From positions 1 through 30,095 of IMG/VR virus record IMGVR_UViG_3300009417_000016: a stretch of 30,095 nt of DNA; one strand, 5' to 3'. Position 1 is the first letter of the stretch, and each line of letters starts with the position of its first letter. Below are positions 1,408 through 12,805 of the stretch, one piece after another. Source of the stretch: a virus. The translations under genes were made by a program, and so were the position numbers. Below the pieces are notes generated by a model that saw only the letters and a program-made list of their open reading frames with translations, was not told where the DNA came from and searched no databases.

Positions 1408-3429
1408 ATGTATCAATATCAAAATAACATCCTTTCAGTACCCGCAAAACTTATATATGAGGACTTGGAGCTTATAGCTTACAACACTTACAAAAGTTGG
1501 TGCCAACGTGGCCATCTTGTCAGAACTAAAGAAGGCAAAGGATTAGACAACGAAGCCTGGATAAGTTATTACGATATTTCAAAAACGTGGGTGCAAAACG
1601 CAATCAAGGCCTATTTGGGTGATCCCAAAAAAGTAGTCGTACAAAATATATTAGAAGATTACATCAAACCAGATCCAGCAGCTGCAAAGTTCTTTTCAGC
1701 ACATCGTACACCAATCGGTAAACCGCTATCATTCGATAAGCAACGAAACCGAGCCACTAACTGCATGATATTAAACGCCATTTCAACAGTAATTAATGAG
1801 AAAGGCATTGCCAACAAAGTTTTTGGTAAAAAGAGAACCAAAATTTGGAAAAACATCAGTGATGCCGTAAACGCTCTAAATTCCGATAAATGGAATTACA
1901 CATTACCAGGAAACGAACGCTCCCTAAAACGAAAATACGATCGCTACATCAAAGAAAGCTACTGGGCATTCATCCATAAAAATGAAGGTACCAAAAACGC
2001 ACGCAAGGTTACAGCTGACATCGAAATGTTACTCATAAGTCTCTATTGCCTTCCAAATAAACCTTACATAGTATCAGTCTCAGACCTCTATTTAGACTTT
2101 TTAGCAGGCGAAATCGAAGTGATTGACATAAAAACAGGTGAAGTTTACGATCGTACGGACTTTTACGATAATGGCCAACCAATCACAGTTTCAGAAAAAA
2201 CAGTATGGAACTACATAAAAAAGCCTAAAAATCAACTAATAATCAAAAAATATCGTGATGGTGCATACGATTTCAGTCACAAAGAACGTCCACACGTTAA
2301 CAGAACCGCGCCAAACTTCTCAATGAGTAAGATCTCATTAGATGATAGAGATATAATGCACACCAAAATGCACGATGGCAACAAAGTAATGGCCTATTAC
2401 GCATTCGATGATATGAGTACAGCCATGATCGGTATTTCGCACTCAAAACAAAAGGATCATGTGCTCTTCCTAGACTGTATCAGAAACATGTTCCGATTTA
2501 CAACAAATAAAGGTCTCGGAGTGCCAATGCAGATGGAAGTTGAGCATCACCTGGTTAAAGATTTTAAAGACGGCCTAATGAAGGCAGGAAACATGTTCCC
2601 ATTCGTCCGCTGGTGTAACCCAACCAACTCACAAGAGAAATACGCAGAAAACCGCATCCGATCTAAAAAATACGGAGTCGAAAAAAACAACAATCAAAAC
2701 GTAGGTCGTCACTATTCGCGTATGGATAGCAACCGCATCACCAGACAAAAGATTTTCGATGAGCAAAACGATAATTACAAATTTGCCAAAGCAGATTATA
2801 AAGCAATTGTAGCACAAGAACTACAGGAGCAAATCGAATACAACAATCAACCGCATCCAGACCAAACCAAATTTAAAGGCATGTCACGCTTGCAAGTATT
2901 CCTGGATAACGTAAATCCAAACCTACCACAATTAGACCGCGCACAACTCGCTAAATATATAGGCATTCACGTGTCAACATCAGTAAGACGTAATCAATAC
3001 GTCACAGTGCAATATGGTAAATACCAATTAGAGAGTCCGCAAGTTATTGAGCAACTAGCACCAAACAATTATAAAGTAGATGCCTACTACCTACCGTCAG
3101 AACTCAACGAAGTAAACGAGGTTTTCATCTACCAAAACGATAGTTACATCTGCACATGTCAACCAGCACCAACATTTAACCGAGCCAATGCCGAATGGAC
3201 GGACGAAGATATGCTAGGCTACAAAAATGCAACAAAATACATCAGCAGATTCGATAAAATGGTAAAAGAAGATACAAATGCCATGCTAAACAAAGTCACC
3301 ATACTCAAAAACCCAAAAGAGGTGTTTTCTGAGGCCGAAATAATATCAGAGGCAGAAACTGAGGAGATATTTGAATACGAAGCTGTAGACACAGCAAAAA
3401 GACGAAATAGAGCTATTAACGATCTATAA
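1408..3429 (+). CDS. MuA-like DDE transposase
   Basis: A 673-residue protein, close to MuA in length (663). It would bind the phage ends and catalyse strand transfer. Residues 1-80 look like DNA binding. The RNase H-fold core spans about 305-420: an acidic strand around D312/D313/D315 (ISLDDRDI), a second strand with AYYAFDDMSTAMIG (330-342), then GVPMQMEVEHHL (371-382) and the helix NSQEKYAENRIRSKK (407-421), which carries the likely catalytic glutamate E410 or E414. The segment that normally holds the second aspartate (D-N-G) shows only glutamates E377 and E379. The C-terminal part (about 490-590) resembles the mu-type beta-barrel, with a basic tail. Its stop is 11 nt before the ATPase partner. 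Confidence 0.93.
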   Translation: MYQYQNNILSVPAKLIYEDLELIAYNTYKSWCQRGHLVRTKEGKGLDNEAWISYYDISKTWVQNAIKAYLGDPKKVVVQNILEDYIKPDPAAAKFFSAHRTPIGKPLSFDKQRNRATNCMILNAISTVINEKGIANKVFGKKRTKIWKNISDAVNALNSDKWNYTLPGNERSLKRKYDRYIKESYWAFIHKNEGTKNARKVTADIEMLLISLYCLPNKPYIVSVSDLYLDFLAGEIEVIDIKTGEVYDRTDFYDNGQPITVSEKTVWNYIKKPKNQLIIKKYRDGAYDFSHKERPHVNRTAPNFSMSKISLDDRDIMHTKMHDGNKVMAYYAFDDMSTAMIGISHSKQKDHVLFLDCIRNMFRFTTNKGLGVPMQMEVEHHLVKDFKDGLMKAGNMFPFVRWCNPTNSQEKYAENRIRSKKYGVEKNNNQNVGRHYSRMDSNRITRQKIFDEQNDNYKFAKADYKAIVAQELQEQIEYNNQPHPDQTKFKGMSRLQVFLDNVNPNLPQLDRAQLAKYIGIHVSTSVRRNQYVTVQYGKYQLESPQVIEQLAPNNYKVDAYYLPSELNEVNEVFIYQNDSYICTCQPAPTFNRANAEWTDEDMLGYKNATKYISRFDKMVKEDTNAMLNKVTILKNPKEVFSEAEIISEAETEEIFEYEAVDTAKRRNRAINDL

Positions 3430-3440
3430 ACCACAACAAA

Positions 3441-4313
3441 ATGCAAACAACTACAAGAACGCAAATCATCCAAGCCCTAAAGGCAAACCGAAACAACTAC
3501 ACCAGTGATGCTAAACATGCACGTGTACTCGGAATTAACACCGCGCAATATTCCAGGATAAAGTCTGGCGAATTAGAGCGCGTTATTTCAGATGCCAAAT
3601 GGATCACGCTGGCGCGTAAATTAGACGTGCAACTCAGAGACACCGTTAAATGGGTTACTGTAGAGACTGAAACCTTTGAGTATATCACCGCACAATTAGA
3701 AGCCTGCCAAAGCGATTCTATATCGCGCATATTTTGCGATCGCTCAGGTATCGGTAAAACACACACGGCAAAAAATTATGTCAGCAGAAATGCAAACGCT
3801 GTTTACATCGATTGCTCGCAAGTAAAATCCAAACAAAAGCTCATCCGCAAAATTGCACGCGAGTTTGGAGTGGAATATACAGGCCGTTACGCAGAAGTGT
3901 ACGAGGATCTCGTATTCTACTTAAACGGACTCGAAAATCCACTGATCATCTTAGACGAAGCTGGCGATGTAGATTATGCAGCATTCTTAGAACTCAAAGC
4001 CATCTGGAATGCTACCGAATACAAATGCGGTTGGTACATGATGGGAGCTGATGGTCTAAAGCAAAAATTAACCAGACAGCGCGATCTTAAAAAGGTAGGA
4101 TATACAGAGATACTAGACCGATACGGCAACGATTACAAAAAAGTATCACCAGAAGGCAAAGAAGCCGTTAAGGAATTCGATCTACAACAAGTCGCACAAA
4201 TATCTAAAGCCAATAACTCTAAGATATCAGCCCTTAAAATGTACGGTAAAACATTAGGATCACTCAGAAAAGTAAGAACCGAAATTCAAAAGCAGCAATT
4301 ACTAGCAAGCTAA
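3441..4313 (+). CDS. MuB-like AAA+ ATPase, transposition target protein
   Basis: A 290-residue protein directly after the transposase; in Mu the B ATPase selects target DNA and activates the transposase. Residues 20-65 form an XRE-like helix-turn-helix (ARVLGINTAQYSRIKSGE), as in MuB N-termini. The ATPase domain has a Walker A loop SGIGKT at 102-107, where the usual first glycine is replaced (CDRSGIGKT), and a Walker B segment PLIILDEAGD at 167-176. A basic C-terminal region (KQKLTRQRDLKK and later) suits DNA contact. The stop codon abuts the next start (4314), so the two ATPases are probably translated together. Confidence 0.9.
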   Translation: MQTTTRTQIIQALKANRNNYTSDAKHARVLGINTAQYSRIKSGELERVISDAKWITLARKLDVQLRDTVKWVTVETETFEYITAQLEACQSDSISRIFCDRSGIGKTHTAKNYVSRNANAVYIDCSQVKSKQKLIRKIAREFGVEYTGRYAEVYEDLVFYLNGLENPLIILDEAGDVDYAAFLELKAIWNATEYKCGWYMMGADGLKQKLTRQRDLKKVGYTEILDRYGNDYKKVSPEGKEAVKEFDLQQVAQISKANNSKISALKMYGKTLGSLRKVRTEIQKQQLLAS

Positions 4314-5562: not shown

Positions 5563-6215
5563 TGACCACAGAAACAAAAACACCAGACCTCTCAAATCTC
5601 TCAGCAGATCAACTAAGAGCACAACTCAAAAAAGTTGAAGCCGTAGAGCGCGAAAAAGAACTAAAGGAACGCAAGGCATACGATGCCGATAACGAAGCTT
5701 TTCTACAGCAATCCGTTAGTAAATTTCAACAGCTAAAGTCAGAGTTAAAAGAGCTGAAGGCATACACCATTAAAGAAGCCAATAAGCTCTACCATCGCAT
5801 GTACGATATTAACAATAAAGAAGCTCCAGAAGTCAATACCTTCTCGCGTGTCAATAAAGATCAAACGATTAAGATCACTGTAGATCGTCAAGATCGTATG
5901 AAATTCAATGACGAAGCCTCAGTACATATCAATGCCATTAAAAACATCTTTAAATCCAAATTCGAGGATCGCAACAAAGGCATGTACAAAATTATGGACG
6001 GTTTGCTTATTAAAGGCTCAAAAGGCGAATACGATCCTAAATTACTAGCTAAAGCACGTCGCCAAGTTAGAGAGCTCGGTTACGAAGATCTTATTGCTGA
6101 GTTCGATAAACTAGACGAATGCCAAATCGTAGAAGGTACCTCCCTCTATTGTCGTGCATACATCAAAGGCAAAAAAGGCTGGGAGGACGTATCACTTAAT
6201 TTCTCAAGCCTGTAG
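5562..6215 (+). CDS. DUF3164-family protein
   Basis: A 217-residue protein matching my knowledge of DUF3164, a family common in the early region of Mu-like phages, with no assigned activity. Residues 10-85 are a long charged helix/coiled coil (AQLKKVEAVEREKELKERKAY and onward). Residues about 105-190 carry the compact part with TIKITVDRQDRMKFND, the helix AIKNIFKSKFEDRNKGM and DPKLLAKARRQVRELGYE. The acidic coiled coil then DNA-contact-like region suggest DNA binding, which is inference. It sits between the ATPases and the GemA-like gene. ATG overlaps the previous stop by one base. Confidence 0.8.
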   Translation: MTTETKTPDLSNLSADQLRAQLKKVEAVEREKELKERKAYDADNEAFLQQSVSKFQQLKSELKELKAYTIKEANKLYHRMYDINNKEAPEVNTFSRVNKDQTIKITVDRQDRMKFNDEASVHINAIKNIFKSKFEDRNKGMYKIMDGLLIKGSKGEYDPKLLAKARRQVRELGYEDLIAEFDKLDECQIVEGTSLYCRAYIKGKKGWEDVSLNFSSL

Positions 6216-6217
6216 TT

Positions 6218-6370
6218 ATGGCAGTAGAAATAAACCAAATATCAGAAGAAAAAATACTAGTAAATAACAAACTAGTATATATAGATCCTAACGGTGTGGT
6301 AAATGCTAAAATAGAGCTCACCACAGCCGAAACCGAAGCATTAAACACTCATCTTTTTAACCCTAGTTAA
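6218..6370 (+). CDS. Small hypothetical protein (50 aa)
   Basis: ATG at 6218 follows the DUF3164 stop by 2 nt; the TAA at 6368-6370 shares its last base with the next ATG. The protein has a strand-rich middle (KILVNNKLVYIDPNGVVNAKIELT) and a helical end. The tight coupling on both sides supports a real gene. No family recognised. Confidence 0.6.
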   Translation: MAVEINQISEEKILVNNKLVYIDPNGVVNAKIELTTAETEALNTHLFNPS

Positions 6371-6798
6371 TGATAGCAGCAAGCCCAAAGCAAAAGCAAA
6401 TTATCGCCATCCTTACCAAAGGCGATAAGGAACTCAAAGCAGCATTTGTCGTACAGCAAACCAAGGACAATGCCAAAAGCTCTACTAATGATCTCACACA
6501 CGCGCAAGCCAATGACATCATTTACCAGCTTGGAGGCAAACCTCTGGTGTACGACAATTGGGCACTGTTCGATAAAAACAAAAAAAGCCACAGAGCCATA
6601 CACGTGCAATGCCATTTCCTAGACTGGACAATCGCATCAAAAAAATACGGTCGCATCATAGATCTATACAGACTCAGCGAATGGCTAAAAAACAAAGCAC
6701 CCGTAAAAAAGAGACTGCTAAGCATGTCTAAAACCGAAATCAGCAAAACCATCTCAGCATTAGAAAATATGGTGCTACAAAAAAACAAAAAAGGATGA
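6370..6798 (+). CDS. Possible GemA/Mu gp16-like early protein
   Basis: A 142-residue protein. The layout, KQKQIIAILTKG at the N-terminus, LTHAQANDIIYQLGGKP in the middle, then a WL segment (YRLSEWLKNKAP) and a C-terminal helix SKTEISKTISALENMVLQ, recalls GemA (DUF1018) and related Bacteroidota phage proteins that have an N-terminal helical unit and a C-terminal helix ending in a leucine-rich pair. GemA alters host gene expression/DNA topology in Mu. The resemblance is by pattern, not by a catalytic motif, so the name is tentative. ATG overlaps the preceding TAA; the end overlaps the next gene by 4 nt. Confidence 0.45.
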   Translation: MIAASPKQKQIIAILTKGDKELKAAFVVQQTKDNAKSSTNDLTHAQANDIIYQLGGKPLVYDNWALFDKNKKSHRAIHVQCHFLDWTIASKKYGRIIDLYRLSEWLKNKAPVKKRLLSMSKTEISKTISALENMVLQKNKKG

Positions 6799-7040
6799 GT
6801 GTAATTTACATCATAGCTACTGTAATTTCAGTATTGGTTATAGCATTCGCAACATTGGCTTTTTGTGTTTTTAATGATAAAGATCCAGATCAACAATTTT
6901 ACTATAATTATGCAATATTACAATGTCCGCATACAGGCGAAAAAACCGACGTTGTAGTAAACTCATGCGTTACCTGCGAAACCGTGCATACCGTATGCGA
7001 TGATTGTGGCCAAGTACTTAATGTAAGACACGACTGTTAA
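6795..7040 (+). CDS. Small membrane protein with zinc-ribbon-like cysteines
   Basis: An 81-residue protein. Residues 3-25 (VIYIIATVISVLVIAFATLA) are a clear membrane segment. The C-terminal half has CPHTGEK, then CVTC, then CDDC and a final HDC, a spacing that suits a zinc ribbon. Orientation is not clear; the ribbon could lie on either side of the inner membrane. ATG overlaps the previous stop (ATGA), so it belongs to the early operon. Possible roles include superinfection exclusion or host takeover, but nothing in the sequence decides this. Confidence 0.65.
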   Translation: MSVIYIIATVISVLVIAFATLAFCVFNDKDPDQQFYYNYAILQCPHTGEKTDVVVNSCVTCETVHTVCDDCGQVLNVRHDC

Positions 7041-8012: not shown

Positions 8013-8150
8013 ATGAAATACAAAACAGAAAAGTACCAAAGAGTTATAAGCGATGCAACCAATGCTATAGATAAAGAGTTGGCCAAAGGCTGGGCAATAT
8101 TAAATAGATGGGTAATAGGCAACCATCTCTATGTAACCTATGTAAAGTAA
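8013..8150 (+). CDS. Small hypothetical protein (45 aa)
   Basis: ATG at 8013, 7 nt after the previous stop, to TAA at 8148-8150. The protein (MKYKTEKYQRVISDATNAID, then a WAILNRWVIGNHLYVTYVK end) has an amphipathic helix followed by a strand pair of the form seen in small DUF1737-like proteins (trailing WV..N......), but this is too short to assign. The frame fills the gap between genes, which supports it. Confidence 0.45.
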   Translation: MKYKTEKYQRVISDATNAIDKELAKGWAILNRWVIGNHLYVTYVK

Positions 8151-8158
8151 ATTTTATT

Positions 8159-8290
8159 ATGAAAAACCTATTTGAAGACATCCTAGAAGGCCTCACAAAA
8201 TCTACCTTAGAAGGTATCGGACAATCCGTTTGGATTTGGCTTATCATTATCGCAGTCCTGGCATTTGGCCTTGGTGCATTATTATTTTAA
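8159..8290 (+). CDS. Small single-span membrane protein (43 aa)
   Basis: Start chosen at ATG 8159 (MKNLFEDILEGLTKSTLEGI), 8 nt after the previous stop. An earlier in-frame ATG at 8108 lies inside the previous gene and would add 17 non-helical residues. Residues 22-43 (WIWLIIIAVLAFGLGALLF) are a membrane segment at the extreme C-terminus, with an amphipathic helix before it: a tail-anchored topology. It ends the early operon. Could act in exclusion or membrane association; not decidable. Confidence 0.55.
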   Translation: MKNLFEDILEGLTKSTLEGIGQSVWIWLIIIAVLAFGLGALLF

Positions 8291-8316: not shown

Positions 8317-9051
8317 ATGAATACACCAGAAATTAAATGTACTAATGATTATTCAAAATTTTCATTATTAGTTGGCAATAGAGTTGTCAATAAGTCTAAA
8401 ATTAATAAGTTGATGGAAGAGGTTACAAATGGCTTAAATCTATTTCCATACTGCCCAATTGTTACCTATAAGGATGGAGATTCGCTTAAAATTATCGATG
8501 GTCAACATCGATTTACAGCATCAAAAGACTTAGAAGAACCAATTTATTATGTAGTCTGTAAAAAACTATCATTACCACAAATAGCAAAGCTGAATAGTAA
8601 TAGTAGTAATTGGAAGTCTAAAGATTACTTAGAATGTTTTATTAAGGTCGGTATTACGGATTATGAAGATATTAAGTCTGTAATTAAAAAGTATAGAATC
8701 GCTTATGCCGTTGCATGTGACTTATTAATGTCTGGCAATGCAAAATCAAAAGGTAAAAATTTAGTGCAATTTAAGGAAGGTACATTTAAATCTAAGTATT
8801 ATCAGGAAAATTGCGATTTATTAGATGAAGTAGAATCTGTATTTGGTCGTTATGAATTTTGGAATCATGGCTATTTGGTTGAAGCCTATAGACAACTCTT
8901 AGAAGCTAACAAATTTGATAAGGATATTCTGGTCAAAAAAATTAAGTCTAATACAAATATTTTAGATCGTAGAACTTCAGTAAAGGAATATTTATTCAAT
9001 ATTGAACGTGTATATAATGATCGCAACCAAAACCGAGTATCAATATTTTAA
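8317..9051 (+). CDS. DGQHR/ParB-like domain protein (accessory)
   Basis: A 244-residue protein. Residues 45-66 hold PIVTYKDGD...IIDGQHRFTA, the ParB/Srx-fold hallmark (D61 G62 Q63 H64 R65), which in this fold binds nucleotide (CTP in ParB; others are nucleases or modification-linked). The rest is helical with DNA-binding character (KSVIKKYRIAYAVACDLL). In phages such genes accompany DNA modification, defence or host takeover. Its codons end in T/A far more than those of the neighbouring early genes, so it is probably a later arrival. Start ATG is 26 nt after the preceding stop; it is followed closely by the HD gene. Confidence 0.75.
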   Translation: MNTPEIKCTNDYSKFSLLVGNRVVNKSKINKLMEEVTNGLNLFPYCPIVTYKDGDSLKIIDGQHRFTASKDLEEPIYYVVCKKLSLPQIAKLNSNSSNWKSKDYLECFIKVGITDYEDIKSVIKKYRIAYAVACDLLMSGNAKSKGKNLVQFKEGTFKSKYYQENCDLLDEVESVFGRYEFWNHGYLVEAYRQLLEANKFDKDILVKKIKSNTNILDRRTSVKEYLFNIERVYNDRNQNRVSIF

Positions 9052-9054
9052 GCT

Positions 9055-9564
9055 ATGACAAAACTAACAGACAAAACGTACACGCCAAATTCCATAAGAA
9101 CCTTCACAGGCAAAACCTTTGATCTCAAAATTATGGATCCAGAAAGTATCTGCATTGAAGATATTGCACACGGTCTAGCGCAACGTCCACGCTTTGCAGG
9201 CCAATTAAAAGAGTTTTACAGTGTAGCTCAACACAGTATTTGGGTTGGTACAAAGCTACCACGAGAGCATAAACTCGCAGCATTATTGCACGATGCCTCA
9301 GAAGCCTATTTAGGCGATATGCCAAGCCCATTCAAAAAGCTGATGCCAGACTTTAAACATTACGAAGATCAACTAATGCAAGTCATCGCCAAAAAGTTTC
9401 ATTTTAAATACCCACTAGATCCAATCATTAAAAAAGCAGATGCCGAGCTATTACAAATGGAATGGGATTACTTCATTAACGACTCTGGAGCGTTAGTACC
9501 ATTTGATGAGTATGATGTTGAAAACATGTTCCTAGAAGCTTTTCACTTCGTTAAAAATGGATAA
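9055..9564 (+). CDS. HD-domain nucleotide phosphohydrolase (YfbR-like)
   Basis: A 169-residue HD-superfamily protein. The metal ligands are visible: H60 (SVAQHSIWVG), H79-D80 (ALLHDASEAYLGD) and D129 (IIKKADAELL). RPRFAGQ before the first histidine is typical of the phage/YfbR branch, which hydrolyses deoxynucleoside monophosphates. In phages these enzymes shape nucleotide pools or remove regulatory nucleotides. The gene starts 3 nt after the DGQHR gene and overlaps the next by 8 nt. Cytoplasmic. The exact substrate cannot be read from the sequence. Confidence 0.85.
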   Translation: MTKLTDKTYTPNSIRTFTGKTFDLKIMDPESICIEDIAHGLAQRPRFAGQLKEFYSVAQHSIWVGTKLPREHKLAALLHDASEAYLGDMPSPFKKLMPDFKHYEDQLMQVIAKKFHFKYPLDPIIKKADAELLQMEWDYFINDSGALVPFDEYDVENMFLEAFHFVKNG

Positions 9565-10071: not shown

Positions 10072-10476
10072 ATGAAAACAAAAAACTTTAGAATCGGGAA
10101 CTTAATATTAGTAAATGAGGTAGTGCAAGAAATAGTTGAACTACCCTTACCCGAAAATTGCACAAATGATAATACGAAAGGAATATTATTAAATGAAGAA
10201 TGGTTGTTTAAATTAGGCTTTGGAAAGTTTGTTTTTCGGGTAAACGAGACATACCAAAAAACTTCGGATATACTATACCGTATTGAAATGGGTACTGATG
10301 CTTGGTTAACTATTTCTTGCAACGGTAAAATGCCTTTTTCTTTTCCAATGATTAAAGATGAAAACCAAAAAGGACATTATCTATTAAGAGGATTAAGTTA
10401 TGTACACCAATTACAGAACTTGTTTTTTGTGCTGACAGGTTATGAACTTACGGTTAAGCACGAAGTAAGTGTTTAA
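10072..10476 (+). CDS. Hypothetical protein of a type common on Bacteroidota mobile DNA
   Basis: A 134-residue protein. The N-terminus FRIGNLILVNEVVQEIVELP, the central ILLNEEWLFKLGF and the C-terminal LSYVHQLQNLFFVLTGYEL match my memory of a widespread Bacteroidota protein of unknown function that is often on mobile elements (RIGN....., then LTEEWL.KLGF, then YVHQLQNL.FALTG.EL). Function unknown. It is followed by a repeat unit that recurs after the next gene, so both may have come as cassettes. Start ATG at 10072 is 42 nt after the preceding stop. Confidence 0.65.
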   Translation: MKTKNFRIGNLILVNEVVQEIVELPLPENCTNDNTKGILLNEEWLFKLGFGKFVFRVNETYQKTSDILYRIEMGTDAWLTISCNGKMPFSFPMIKDENQKGHYLLRGLSYVHQLQNLFFVLTGYELTVKHEVSV

Positions 10477-10550
10477 TTATATGCGGTGTTGTACACAGTT
10501 GATTTTTTTAAAATAACGGCATAATCCAAAATATGCCACAAAAACAGAAT
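10477..10550 (+). repeat. Cassette-like repeat unit, copy A
   Basis: Directly after the stop codon. It contains TTATATGCGG (10477-10486), TGTTGTACACAGTTGA (10487-10502), ATAACGGCATAATC (10513-10526) and TATGCCACAAAAACAGAAT (10532-10550), and GGCATA/TATGCC (10518-10537) is an inverted repeat. The same blocks, in the same order, recur at 10953-11055 after the next gene. ATTAT...ATAAT inverted ends recall attC sites, but no integron integrase is visible. Confidence 0.75.
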
Positions 10551-10554
10551 AATT

Positions 10555-10914
10555 ATGAATACACTTTTAAAACTATTATTAGACGCTAAACCATTTTTAA
10601 CCAATGAAATTACCATTGCAAAGAGTGAGGGCAATTATAGCAATGCTAAAATATGGAAGGCAGATGAACCTTTGGAAAGCACCAAACCTGAAGCATTAAT
10701 TATACAACGTGTTAGCAATAACGAAGCGGTTTTACAGTACGAAACTTGCCAAAAAGGAAGAATAACAAAGTGTAAATGCGAAAGTGACCAAGATTGCAAG
10801 GAAAAAAGCGAAGTGGCGGTTTGCCAAAATTGCGGAAATGATAGTTATACTAAACGTATGGGTGGAAAACTAATTTGCCAAAGATGTAACGAAGATTGGC
10901 AAACTGATTGCTAA
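10555..10914 (+). CDS. Zinc-ribbon-like hypothetical protein (119 aa)
   Basis: The C-terminal part has CKCESDQDC, then CQNCGNDSY and ICQRCNEDWQTDC: CQNC and CQRC spaced about 18 residues apart would make a zinc ribbon. The N-terminal 70 residues are helical then strand-like with no family match. It stands between two copies of the same repeat unit and is the only gene in that interval, which makes it look like a cassette gene. Start ATG at 10555 is 4 nt past copy A. Function unknown; nucleic-acid binding is possible from the ribbon. Confidence 0.65.
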   Translation: MNTLLKLLLDAKPFLTNEITIAKSEGNYSNAKIWKADEPLESTKPEALIIQRVSNNEAVLQYETCQKGRITKCKCESDQDCKEKSEVAVCQNCGNDSYTKRMGGKLICQRCNEDWQTDC

Positions 10915-10952
10915 TACCAAGCTATGACTAGTTGTGAGGCACGAGCAATTAG

Positions 10953-11055
10953 TTATAGCGACTGTTGTAAATAGTTGAAAAATCACAAATTTAAGTGATA
11001 ATAAGCATTATCACGTTATAACGGCATAATCGCTATTATGCCACAAATACGGAAT
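10953..11055 (+). repeat. Cassette-like repeat unit, copy B
   Basis: Blocks TTATAGCG (10953-10960), TGTTGTAAATAGTTGA (10963-10978), ATAACGGCATAATC (11018-11031, identical to copy A) and TATGCCACAAATACGGAAT (11037-11055, two differences from A). Copy B is longer by a 20-nt hairpin inserted between the second and third blocks. Confidence 0.75.
10995..11042. repeat. Three abutting perfect palindromes
   Basis: GTGATAAT-AAGC-ATTATCAC (10995-11014), then GTTATAAC (11015-11022), then GGCATAAT-CGCT-ATTATGCC (11023-11042), with no base between them. The outer two have 8-bp stems with 4-nt loops. They form the core of copy B. No T-run follows, so they are not a simple terminator. Confidence 0.85.
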
Positions 11056-11104
11056 TAGTAATTTTATCATATTTTAGTATCATATTAACTTAAAACGCAA
11101 ACAA

Positions 11105-11704
11105 ATGAAAATTATTAAAGTTATTCTTTACTTCATCTTAGCTATTGTAATACTGTTTATAGCTATGACAATTATAGGTAGTGTATTCTATTCTAATGCT
11201 GATGAAGTATCAAAAGAAATCAAAACAGATAGTATTGTAGCAAAACCTATAGAAGATGCAATTACACCGCCAAAAAAAGAATATCTATGGCGATATGTAA
11301 CTCAAAAAGATGAAATGGACAATAGTACCGACTATTTCGCTACACTAAACTCAGATAACCAGCTCAACTTTAAATTTCCATATTCTGGAGGCTCTACAGG
11401 TGTGCTAACTTTGCGTAATATGAACAAACAAAACAGTGTGGCATTACGTATAGACAAAGGGCAGTTTATGCCAAGCTATTCTAATGATAGGGTTATACGT
11501 GTAAAGTTTGATGACGCGCAGCCAATTAACTTTACTTATAGTATGGCTGATGATGGTAGTTCAGATTATTTATTTCCAAATAAATCTAATCAACTTATTC
11601 GCAAAATTAAAAATGCTAAAACCATAAAGATTGAGGCACCTTTCTTTGGTGAAGGTCGCCAAATACTAATTTTTACAACAGAAGGTTTAAAATGGGATAA
11701 ATAA
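11105..11704 (+). CDS. Membrane-anchored hypothetical protein, probable moron
   Basis: A 199-residue protein. Residues 5-29 (KVILYFILAIVILFIAMTII and on) are one membrane segment or uncleaved signal, so the rest, from about 30, is probably periplasmic. The soluble part has a repeated strand pattern with FPYSGGSTGVLTLR, VALRIDKGQF and IKIEAPFFGEGRQILIF, ending GLKWD; this is a recognisable beta-sandwich-like arrangement but I do not know a named function. Its place between accessory genes and the late regulator suggests a lysogenic conversion or superinfection exclusion gene. Base use (T-ending codons) differs from the early operon. Confidence 0.65.
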   Translation: MKIIKVILYFILAIVILFIAMTIIGSVFYSNADEVSKEIKTDSIVAKPIEDAITPPKKEYLWRYVTQKDEMDNSTDYFATLNSDNQLNFKFPYSGGSTGVLTLRNMNKQNSVALRIDKGQFMPSYSNDRVIRVKFDDAQPINFTYSMADDGSSDYLFPNKSNQLIRKIKNAKTIKIEAPFFGEGRQILIFTTEGLKWDK

Positions 11705-11722: not shown

Positions 11723-11860
11723 TTGCAAACACGAAACAAGAGCAATCTTGATTCATTTTATTAACGATAGCGAAAGCCACACTAAGGTTCACCCTAAGGA
11801 AACTCGGGTAATCCGATTCTTGTAATCGTGTTTGCAAATCTAAAGTGTGGCTTTATTTTT
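11723..11860 (+). ncRNA. Candidate structured RNA with H-type pseudoknot and terminator
   Basis: Two perfect long pairings cross one another: TTGCAAACACGA (11723-11734) with TCGTGTTTGCAA (11826-11837), and AAAGCCACACT (11773-11783) with AGTGTGGCTTT (11844-11854). The second is followed by ATTTTTGTT, so it can serve as an intrinsic terminator. Smaller hairpins fill the loops: CAAGA-GCAA-TCTTG (11737-11750) and CGATT-CTTGT-AATCG (11814-11828, overlapping the first pairing by 2 nt). A promoter -7 element TATATTTG lies at 11712-11719, placing the start near 11725, though I see no good TTG upstream. No protein frame fits. Function unknown; alternatives are a regulatory leader of the next gene or a DNA regulatory array. 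Confidence 0.5.
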
Positions 11861-11905: not shown

Positions 11906-12130
11906 ATGGCACTCACACGCGATGAACGTTTAAAACTTCGTGACGAAAAGGTTAGAGAACTCTTCGATAAAATCTCAACCAAAAATCCCAAATGGCGATT
12001 CGATGCTATTATAGAAGATATAGAGCTCATCGTATATTTAGCTCCACGTACCATAGAAGGCATTTTAAGAGGCGAAGGTCGCTATGCTGTAGATCCTAAA
12101 CCAGAGGAATCACCTAACTTATTTTCTTAA
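11906..12130 (+). CDS. Small HTH-like protein, candidate middle/late activator
   Basis: A 74-residue protein starting at ATG 11906; an open stretch further upstream lies in the RNA/promoter region and is not coding-like. DERLKLRDEKVRELFDKIST is a basic amphipathic helix, and NPKWRFDAIIEDIELIVYLAPRTIEGILRGEG reads as helix-turn-helix with APRTIEGIL as recognition helix. The pattern is like Bacteroidota phage DNA-binding proteins. Its place, alone between early and late regions, is that of Mor/C in Mu, so a transcription activator is my inference; autoregulation through the dyad at 11870-11885 is possible. Its 3' end overlaps the convergent gpF-like gene by 12 nt. Confidence 0.6.
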   Translation: MALTRDERLKLRDEKVRELFDKISTKNPKWRFDAIIEDIELIVYLAPRTIEGILRGEGRYAVDPKPEESPNLFS

Positions 12131-12805
12131 GTCCTTTGCTGCCTTACGTGCTGCTTTAACTTCAGCTTTCGTTAAACGCTTCTGGTACACTATATCTTTG
12201 TAGATTTTTCCACTAATAGCGGCATTGTTTTTAAACTTAGTACTCAAATTACCAGCTGGTAAATTTTTACTCACCGCTTTATCCGTTTGTGTAACTCCAC
12301 AACGGCAACCATGATCGCTCGGAGGATAGATTTCTTTCCATATCGCATGATCTATCGGAGCGATTAATCCATCCCACGCTTTATGAGACTTGCGAGTTCT
12401 TGCATCATGTATTGCAGAATATTGCAAGTTAGGATAAAGATCTTTATTATTCTGAAAGTCTTGCCATTTACCAGCCATATTTGCCGTAGCAATGGTATGG
12501 TTATATTCTGTCTCTAACCAATTGACATTGTACAAACCAGACACACGTAAAGCCACTTTCTTAAAATCGTTCCACGGCACAATTTTGCCTCCAGAGACTA
12601 AAGCAGCTTCAAGTTCTTTTTTAAAAGCCGTTTCTTTAAATGCGCTAAATTCTGCAATGTTATTTTTTAGTGAGATCGCTAACGCTTCATCAAAGTAGTC
12701 TAATGTATCATTATAGCCAATATCCACGCCTTTTGCTAGTAAAGTGTTATAATACACCAGCAATTCCTTTTGTAAGGCCTTAGACACCTCACGCTTGGCA
12801 AACAT
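12119..12805 (-). CDS. gpF-like minor head / head morphogenesis protein
   Basis: A 228-residue protein from the only ATG (12805). The C-terminal Phage_Mu_F core is clear: R136/R138, H141 and WDG (144-146), then PPSDHGCRCG (161-170) with the two cysteines that bind metal in this family. It joins the portal region and directs head assembly, as Mu gpF/SPP1 gp7 do. The frame stays open for 41 codons upstream of this ATG with no ATG, GTG or TTG, straight into the portal stop region where a -1 frameshift signal lies; the fused product would be about 672 residues. Start is therefore uncertain: internal ATG, frameshift fusion, or both. Confidence 0.88.
   Translation of the reverse strand: MFAKREVSKALQKELLVYYNTLLAKGVDIGYNDTLDYFDEALAISLKNNIAEFSAFKETAFKKELEAALVSGGKIVPWNDFKKVALRVSGLYNVNWLETEYNHTIATANMAGKWQDFQNNKDLYPNLQYSAIHDARTRKSHKAWDGLIAPIDHAIWKEIYPPSDHGCRCGVTQTDKAVSKNLPAGNLSTKFKNNAAISGKIYKDIVYQKRLTKAEVKAARKAAKDLRK

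Follow-up and report, generated by a model that had tools for sequence, protein, structure and literature searches.

Two elements in the repeated unit of a Mu-like phage

A viral DNA fragment carries two copies of a repeat, each closely behind a gene, and this layout raises the question of whether the phage took part in integron-type capture of gene cassettes. The fragment (a virus record of 30,095 bases, hereafter called the window, which designates the whole stretch analysed) contains MuA- and MuB-like genes and is thus a Mu-like phage (Table 1). Relatives of its MuA were found in contigs of Tenacibaculum, Mesonia, Algibacter, Flavobacterium and others, so the host is likely a member of the Flavobacteriaceae. 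No relatives of the head gene (12119-12805) were found in viral contigs. An earlier note on this DNA had proposed that the two copies, A and B, resemble attC sites of integron cassettes, with a zinc-ribbon-like gene between them and no integrase in the window. The last point was borne out, as no relative of the chromosomal recombinase described below was found there (best E 1.9).

Comparison of the two copies confirmed the repeat as a 43-nt block with 81% identity (10513-10555 and 11018-11060), and searching copy A against the whole window gave 84% identity over 38 nt (E 2.8e-7). A shorter block lying upstream in the same register (10487-10502 and 10963-10978; 16 nt, 87.5%, E 0.91) is not significant alone. 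The exact core ATAACGGCATAATC occurs at only these two places in the record, even when two mismatches are allowed. Copy A directly follows the stop codon at 10476, copy B lies 38 nt past the stop at 10914, and there is indeed a single gene between them, whose likeness to a zinc ribbon is weak (PF11781, 23.5 bits for a cut-off of 27.1). A search of 397 Flavobacteriaceae genomes, run without a positive control, returned no relatives of this gene. Its start and end lack the complementarity of cassettes, and the matched-end pairs detected in the window do not include it.

Each unit is in fact composed of two adjacent elements, a recombination-site part on the 5' side and a leader hairpin on the 3' side. 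The boundaries first given to the units were misplaced: the recombination-site sequence of B starts at about 10909, to the left of 10953, and what the copies share on the 3' side is an element of another kind. The inverted unit ends (ATTAT...ATAAT) are present in copy A and absent from copy B. Likewise, the ATAACGGCATAATC block, taken at first for the attC core, belongs to a separate phage leader hairpin; what resembles attC is found left of this block, on the minus strand.

The leader hairpin has the form GGCATAAT-loop-ATTATGCC. In another phage contig (L004) it stands ahead of a gene with no attC-like sequence (no arm-profile match of at least 15 bits; the profile is described below), and in Winogradskyella phage Peternella_1 it is placed after a site. 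The block is most likely a putative operator or mRNA leader structure. Its left half, AACGGCATAAT, is invariant in both copies of the window, in L004 (5249-5290) and in a Peternella_1 locus (L122, 6084-6105), and its near-perfect dyad resembles an operator or an mRNA structure. A longer leader pattern matched eight stretches, among which only L004 and Peternella_1 (L125) fit by context. We also considered the 14-bp block as an attC or mobile core; it matched at least 119 viral stretches and, among the matches listed, only L004 was window-like downstream, and this candidate was dropped.

Table 1. Position of the features described in the window
Feature	Position	Strand	Basis or remark
MuA-like transposase	1408..3429	+	phrog_310, E 7.7e-41; marks a Mu-like phage
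MuB-like ATPase	3441..4313	+	phrog_296, E 2e-43
Gene upstream of A, function unassigned	10072..10476	+	phrog_10066, E 1.1e-12
Site A, single attC arm (GTGTACAACACCGCATATAATTAA...), partner arm lost	10466..10496	-	Second-best arm-profile place, 14.2 bits
Leader block A with hairpin 10518-10537	10513..10555	+	Just ahead of gene 10555-10914
Zinc-ribbon-like gene flanked by A and B, candidate for a cassette gene	10555..10914	+	PF11781, below cut-off
Site B, short attC-type site, whole, inverted relative to flanking genes	10909..10973	-	Covariance model; 91% with Peternella_1
R'-like box of B, GGTATTA, mutated core	10912..10918	-	Sequence; overlaps stop codon of upstream gene
Opposite inner arm of B (L' side), CAACTAGTCATAGC	10921..10934	-	13/14 identical to chromosomal right arm
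Inner arm of B (L'' side), GCTATAACTAATTG	10946..10959	-	Sequence, arm profile
R''-like box of B, TTTACAAC on minus strand	10964..10971	-	Start of best arm-profile match in the window
Further hairpin with a perfect stem, GTGATAAT-AAGC-ATTATCAC, present in copy B alone	10995..11014	+	Fold of 10975-11065, z -3.3
Leader block B; its hairpin at 11023-11042 is perfect	11018..11060	+	Similar block in L004 and Peternella_1
Gene downstream of B, function unassigned	11105..11704	+	phrog_1848, E 1.6e-9

Cassette arrays in Flavobacteriaceae chromosomes

Positions 10912-10980 were used as a DNA query on the 397 Flavobacteriaceae genomes. Matches covering 31-40 of the 69 bases were found in seven genomes, within long chromosomal palindromes, and two of the seven regions (L176 and L178) turned out to be arrays of genes on one strand. 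A unit of these arrays begins with GTTNNNNNNN and ends with its exact inverse complement just past the stop codon. Self-complementary unit ends are a mark of integron cassettes. More generally, the Flavobacteriaceae cassettes start with GTTN(6-7), end with the exact inverse complement of that start and have attC-like sites with covarying stems. In the seven regions, 11 units had ends complementary at 10/10 positions, against 0, 0 and 0 in three control pairings; one region with matched ends, L179, is AT-rich and chance-like. Over loci L168-L216 the count was 44 against 0, 2 and 0 in the controls, some of these loci overlapping so that cassettes were counted repeatedly. The gene preceded the attC in 59 of 68 matched chromosomal cassettes, and the order was inverted in a single one. 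The 12-kb stretch 7251-19312 of L176 is such an array; its first genes look TIR-type- and HNH-like by eye, which would fit a store of defence genes.

A covariance model was built from ten aligned chromosomal sites only. The ten named pairs of these sites were formed in 99% of 100 cells, and three of them showed changes on both sides. None of 500 shuffles reached the covariation score of the stems, a comparison favoured by the fact that the structure was derived from the same sequences. When one chromosomal site was used in a DNA search at E 1e-6, matches were obtained in 285 of the 397 genomes, in an array or otherwise.

Site B belongs to the chromosomal family and A probably retains one arm

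The model of chromosomal sites recognized B with 20.8 bits (E 0.0093 over 348 kb; 21.0 bits and E 7.3e-5 over 3 kb). A profile of 25 bases drawn from 23 chromosomal arms, trained on array loci, also had its best match in the window at B (20.7 bits, 10942-10966), a score reached at 1 in 9.0 million positions under a simulated null. The likeness of the opposite arm to the chromosomal right arm was equalled in one of 300 shuffles. B thus has complementary inner arms and a loop with the sequence and structure of the chromosomal family, as seen with the covariance model and in the predicted inner stem. Its fold energy is no better than that of shuffles (z -0.15), though the inner attC stem forms in the prediction. 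Of the two cores expected of an attC, AAC and GTT, the first is present (10964-10966, minus strand), and the other reads GTA instead of GTT. Judged by its sequence, B is an attC-type site of the family that separates Flavobacteriaceae chromosomal cassettes, and it may be a dead site because its R' core is mutated. The stretch 10912-10977 recurs at 91% in Peternella_1, next to a different gene and with the identical change in the core.

Evidence at A is of another kind. The covariance model gave 11 bits (E 3.1 over 348 kb, not significant), and no partner arm was found, the best candidate being equalled in 126 of 300 shuffles; A therefore has one arm instead of the two complementary arms of an attC. 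Its arm-profile score has a simulated probability of 2.5e-6 per position. Over the 30-kb window, B and A were followed by a third place at 11.5 bits. In 100 simulated windows the top score was 11.4 bits on average and 18.0 bits at the highest, so a scan made without prior knowledge would not single out A. We count it nonetheless, since it falls on a copy already singled out by the earlier reader. Rfam gave no match at the sites, and plasmid BLAST with the region returned chance-level matches only. With one site and one arm, the window would be a borderline candidate for a CALIN (at least two attC sites and no integrase). The lack of an attC-like fold, which the earlier note had named as an argument against its own proposal, was found at A and not at B. 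As for the proposal itself, an attC-type site is present, but the anatomy differs from the one proposed: the attC-like part is inverted relative to the genes, and A is a single arm.

A tyrosine recombinase and an attI-like motif precede the arrays

Two arrays (L197 and L201) start beside a tyrosine recombinase. Its relative in Tenacibaculum haliotis (395 aa) matched in 225 of the 397 genomes at E 1e-50, the matches perhaps covering more than one clade. The 30 best recombinase loci were used for the counts that follow. In 22 of the 30 loci the matched region is followed, at a distance of 27-265 bases, by an attI-like motif, ATATAACNAGTT, which precedes it in none; outside these loci it occurred three times in 1.60 Mb, array loci L168-L216 having been left out beforehand. 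Among the 24 loci that have some 1.5 kb of downstream sequence, 19 carry an attC arm of at least 17 bits in it; upstream, such an arm was found in 0/30. Matches to the covariance model were obtained at 17 of the 30 loci, at none of four other tyrosine-recombinase loci and at one of the three first loci (L158-L160). The first cassette after ATATAACNAGTT had ends matched at 9/9 positions in 12 of 22 cases, four of which offered less than 250 bases of room. These sets are partly dependent, the arm profile having been trained on array loci and L245 being the same place as L197; the profile was not used for the motif count or for the matched-end counts. Integrase, attI and cassette array, which together make an integron platform, are thus found together in Flavobacteriaceae chromosomes. 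Recombinases of three genomes (G001-G003) had at first been doubted as array integrases, with no strict cassettes beside them; this doubt was reversed because L197 and L201, and then the 30 loci, show arrays.

Aligned with VchIntIA (2a3v), the recombinase lacks an insert of about 55 residues (query 288-298 against chain 188-243), and this insert is the defining mark of IntI. The protein therefore falls outside the IntI family proper, which has the IntI-specific insert (patch III region). From its sequence, it is an IntI/XerA-like tyrosine recombinase without the IntI insert. That this insert defines IntI is in part taken from PMC9668308. In four genomes, TIGR02249 matched the recombinase only below the family cut-off; the IntI model found nothing in 299 genomes at E 1e-40, but control genomes likewise gave none, so this negative carries little weight. 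The Flavobacteriaceae platform shares with classical IntI integrons a tyrosine recombinase ending in SPLD, an attI-like point, one-gene cassettes and folded attC sites with covarying stems. It differs from them in the missing insert, the SPL tail being common to both, and in that recombinase and array have the same direction.

A review lists Bacteroidota among the phyla with integrons. In the integron and attC literature on Flavobacteriaceae and Bacteroidetes, with most subscription papers and all preprints outside the scope of the search, we did not find these arrays described. In that literature we likewise met no description of this gene-capture system, an integron with an unusual integrase that is common in flavobacterial chromosomes.

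Related sites in other phages

Peternella_1 (MT732475, Winoviridae) is, like the window, a Mu-like flavophage with site B and the leader hairpin. Its MuA is distant (22% identical over 54% of the query) and, unlike the window, it has three further sites and two cassettes with exactly matched ends. The covariance model detected its four sites with 93.8 (site 1, E 1e-21), 28.1, 24.0 and 18.5 bits. With these four sites it has the composition of a CALIN, that is, at least two attC within a few kb and no integrase, and it gave no match to TIGR02249. The cassette ends of genes 21 and 22 are GTTACCAAC and GTTACCCTT, each matched at 9/9 positions. Across 31 phage and prophage sources there was no overall excess of matched ends (137 against 109, 96 and 162 in control pairings), and we therefore claim them only for these adjacent genes. 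In the paper on this phage (PMC8776804), the words "cassette" and "integron" do not occur. An arm-profile match of 18.0 bits among its structural genes (L122, 9141-9215) was not found by the covariance model at E 5.

A contig with a Mu-like prophage of Algibacter (L149) has one site (45.4 bits, E 4.2e-9). We assign this candidate site to the prophage itself, since the start of MuA is only 8.6 kb upstream of it and relatives of early phage genes come before it. MuA and the early genes occupy one strand in Peternella_1 and Algibacter, and all the sites occupy the other. Weaker model matches were obtained in L148 (E 0.006), L136 (E 0.07) and L147 (E 0.9). In Tenacibaculum haliotis (L143), two matches (6682-6819 and 8082-8203; E 8e-6 and 0.003) lie just to the left of a Mu-like prophage. 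They may be host DNA, and the prophage may be located beside or in a cassette array. A viral contig (IMGVR_UViG_3300030060_007798; L247, 533-670) carries a near-perfect site of chromosomal type (124.8 bits) in gene-then-site order and may be a misfiled host array.

attC sites in phages have been reported by Qi et al. (2023; PMC9892861), including the virulent Polaribacter phage P12002L, and recombination by IntI1 was shown for five of the six phage sites tried. Like the window, those phages have attC-type sites and cassette-like genes with no integrase gene. The window differs from the phages described there in being of Mu-like, temperate type and in that its sites, a complete one and a half one, belong to a Flavobacteriaceae family and run against the genes. 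The same text contains no mention of Bacteroid-, Flavobacter-, Winogradskyella or Peternella.

Origin of the sites and alternative explanations

We propose that gene cassettes were once recombined in this Mu-like flavophage in the manner of an integron, and that B and the half-site A are probably what is left of it. This proposal is based on the fit of B to a model built only from chromosomal sites, on the clearer sites present in the same genome part of related phages, and on the location of the chromosomal sites in arrays that follow an attI-like motif and the gene of a tyrosine recombinase. A recombinase of the host cell would act in trans on the sites, folded as single strands, and small genes would be inserted or exchanged between the early and late genes of the phage. 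The gene between A and B may have been captured in this way. The sites would then decay, the R' box of B by mutation and A by loss of one half. In the phages, sites and genes point in opposite directions, an order found in one of the 68 chromosomal cassettes, so a phage cassette is more than a usual cassette of the host. At a guess, capture was first inverted, and genes in line with the phage operon were then kept.

Other origins have to be weighed against this proposal. The attC-like stretches could be passive linkers that entered flavophages once, neighbouring genes having been swapped by homologous recombination across about 67 conserved bases with no integrase. At least site B was inherited or exchanged between phages, as the window and Peternella_1 share it, mutated core included, and the lack of a recombinase relative in the former and of a TIGR02249 match in the latter agrees with this reading. 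We nevertheless find this origin unlikely, as linker exchange does not make the matched ends of two adjacent Peternella_1 genes, and this phage has four different sites. It is still less probable, in our opinion, that the sites, whatever their origin, persist because they serve in regulation, as DNA or as RNA (as terminators between small genes, or as leader hairpins there), with recombination irrelevant now. The good conservation of the leader hairpins and the inverted position of the sites would fit a regulatory role, but B itself folds weakly and the conserved hairpin is present without attC in L004.

The earlier note had itself raised an old tandem duplication of the locus, which would involve no recombination site. 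There are only two copies in the window, alike over the 43-nt block, as a duplication would leave them; however, the arm profile, trained on chromosomes, scores highest in the window at B and A, and B is common to a distant phage. The arm profile, the arm comparisons and the covariance model largely disfavour such a duplication, which we regard as very improbable, while duplication of the leader block alone is possible.

Beyond this locus, we see an even chance for a broader joint reading, in which Flavobacteriaceae commonly hold a distinct class of integron whose recombinase has no IntI insert and which standard integron tools were not built to see, and in which Mu-like flavophages acquire and exchange its cassettes, the attC sites facing against the genes of the phage. 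If this is true, gene capture in a bacterial family of large size and ecological importance has a platform of its own, missed by standard integron searches, and phages can move the cassettes of this platform between hosts. One could then also test if integron recombination really requires the IntI insert, as has been said.

The accessory region of the window contains a ParB-like gene (phrog_12305, 8317-9051) and a nucleoside monophosphate phosphatase-like gene (phrog_318, 9055-9564), neither of which had a match in the 13 loci compared. Farther downstream, at 11775-11854 (plus strand), the Rfam c4-2 RNA model matched over its full length with 36.3 bits (gathering threshold 41; E 2.2e-5). A folded stretch of Peternella_1 located ahead of a KilA-N gene (L122, about 6190-6290) resembles it, by eye only.
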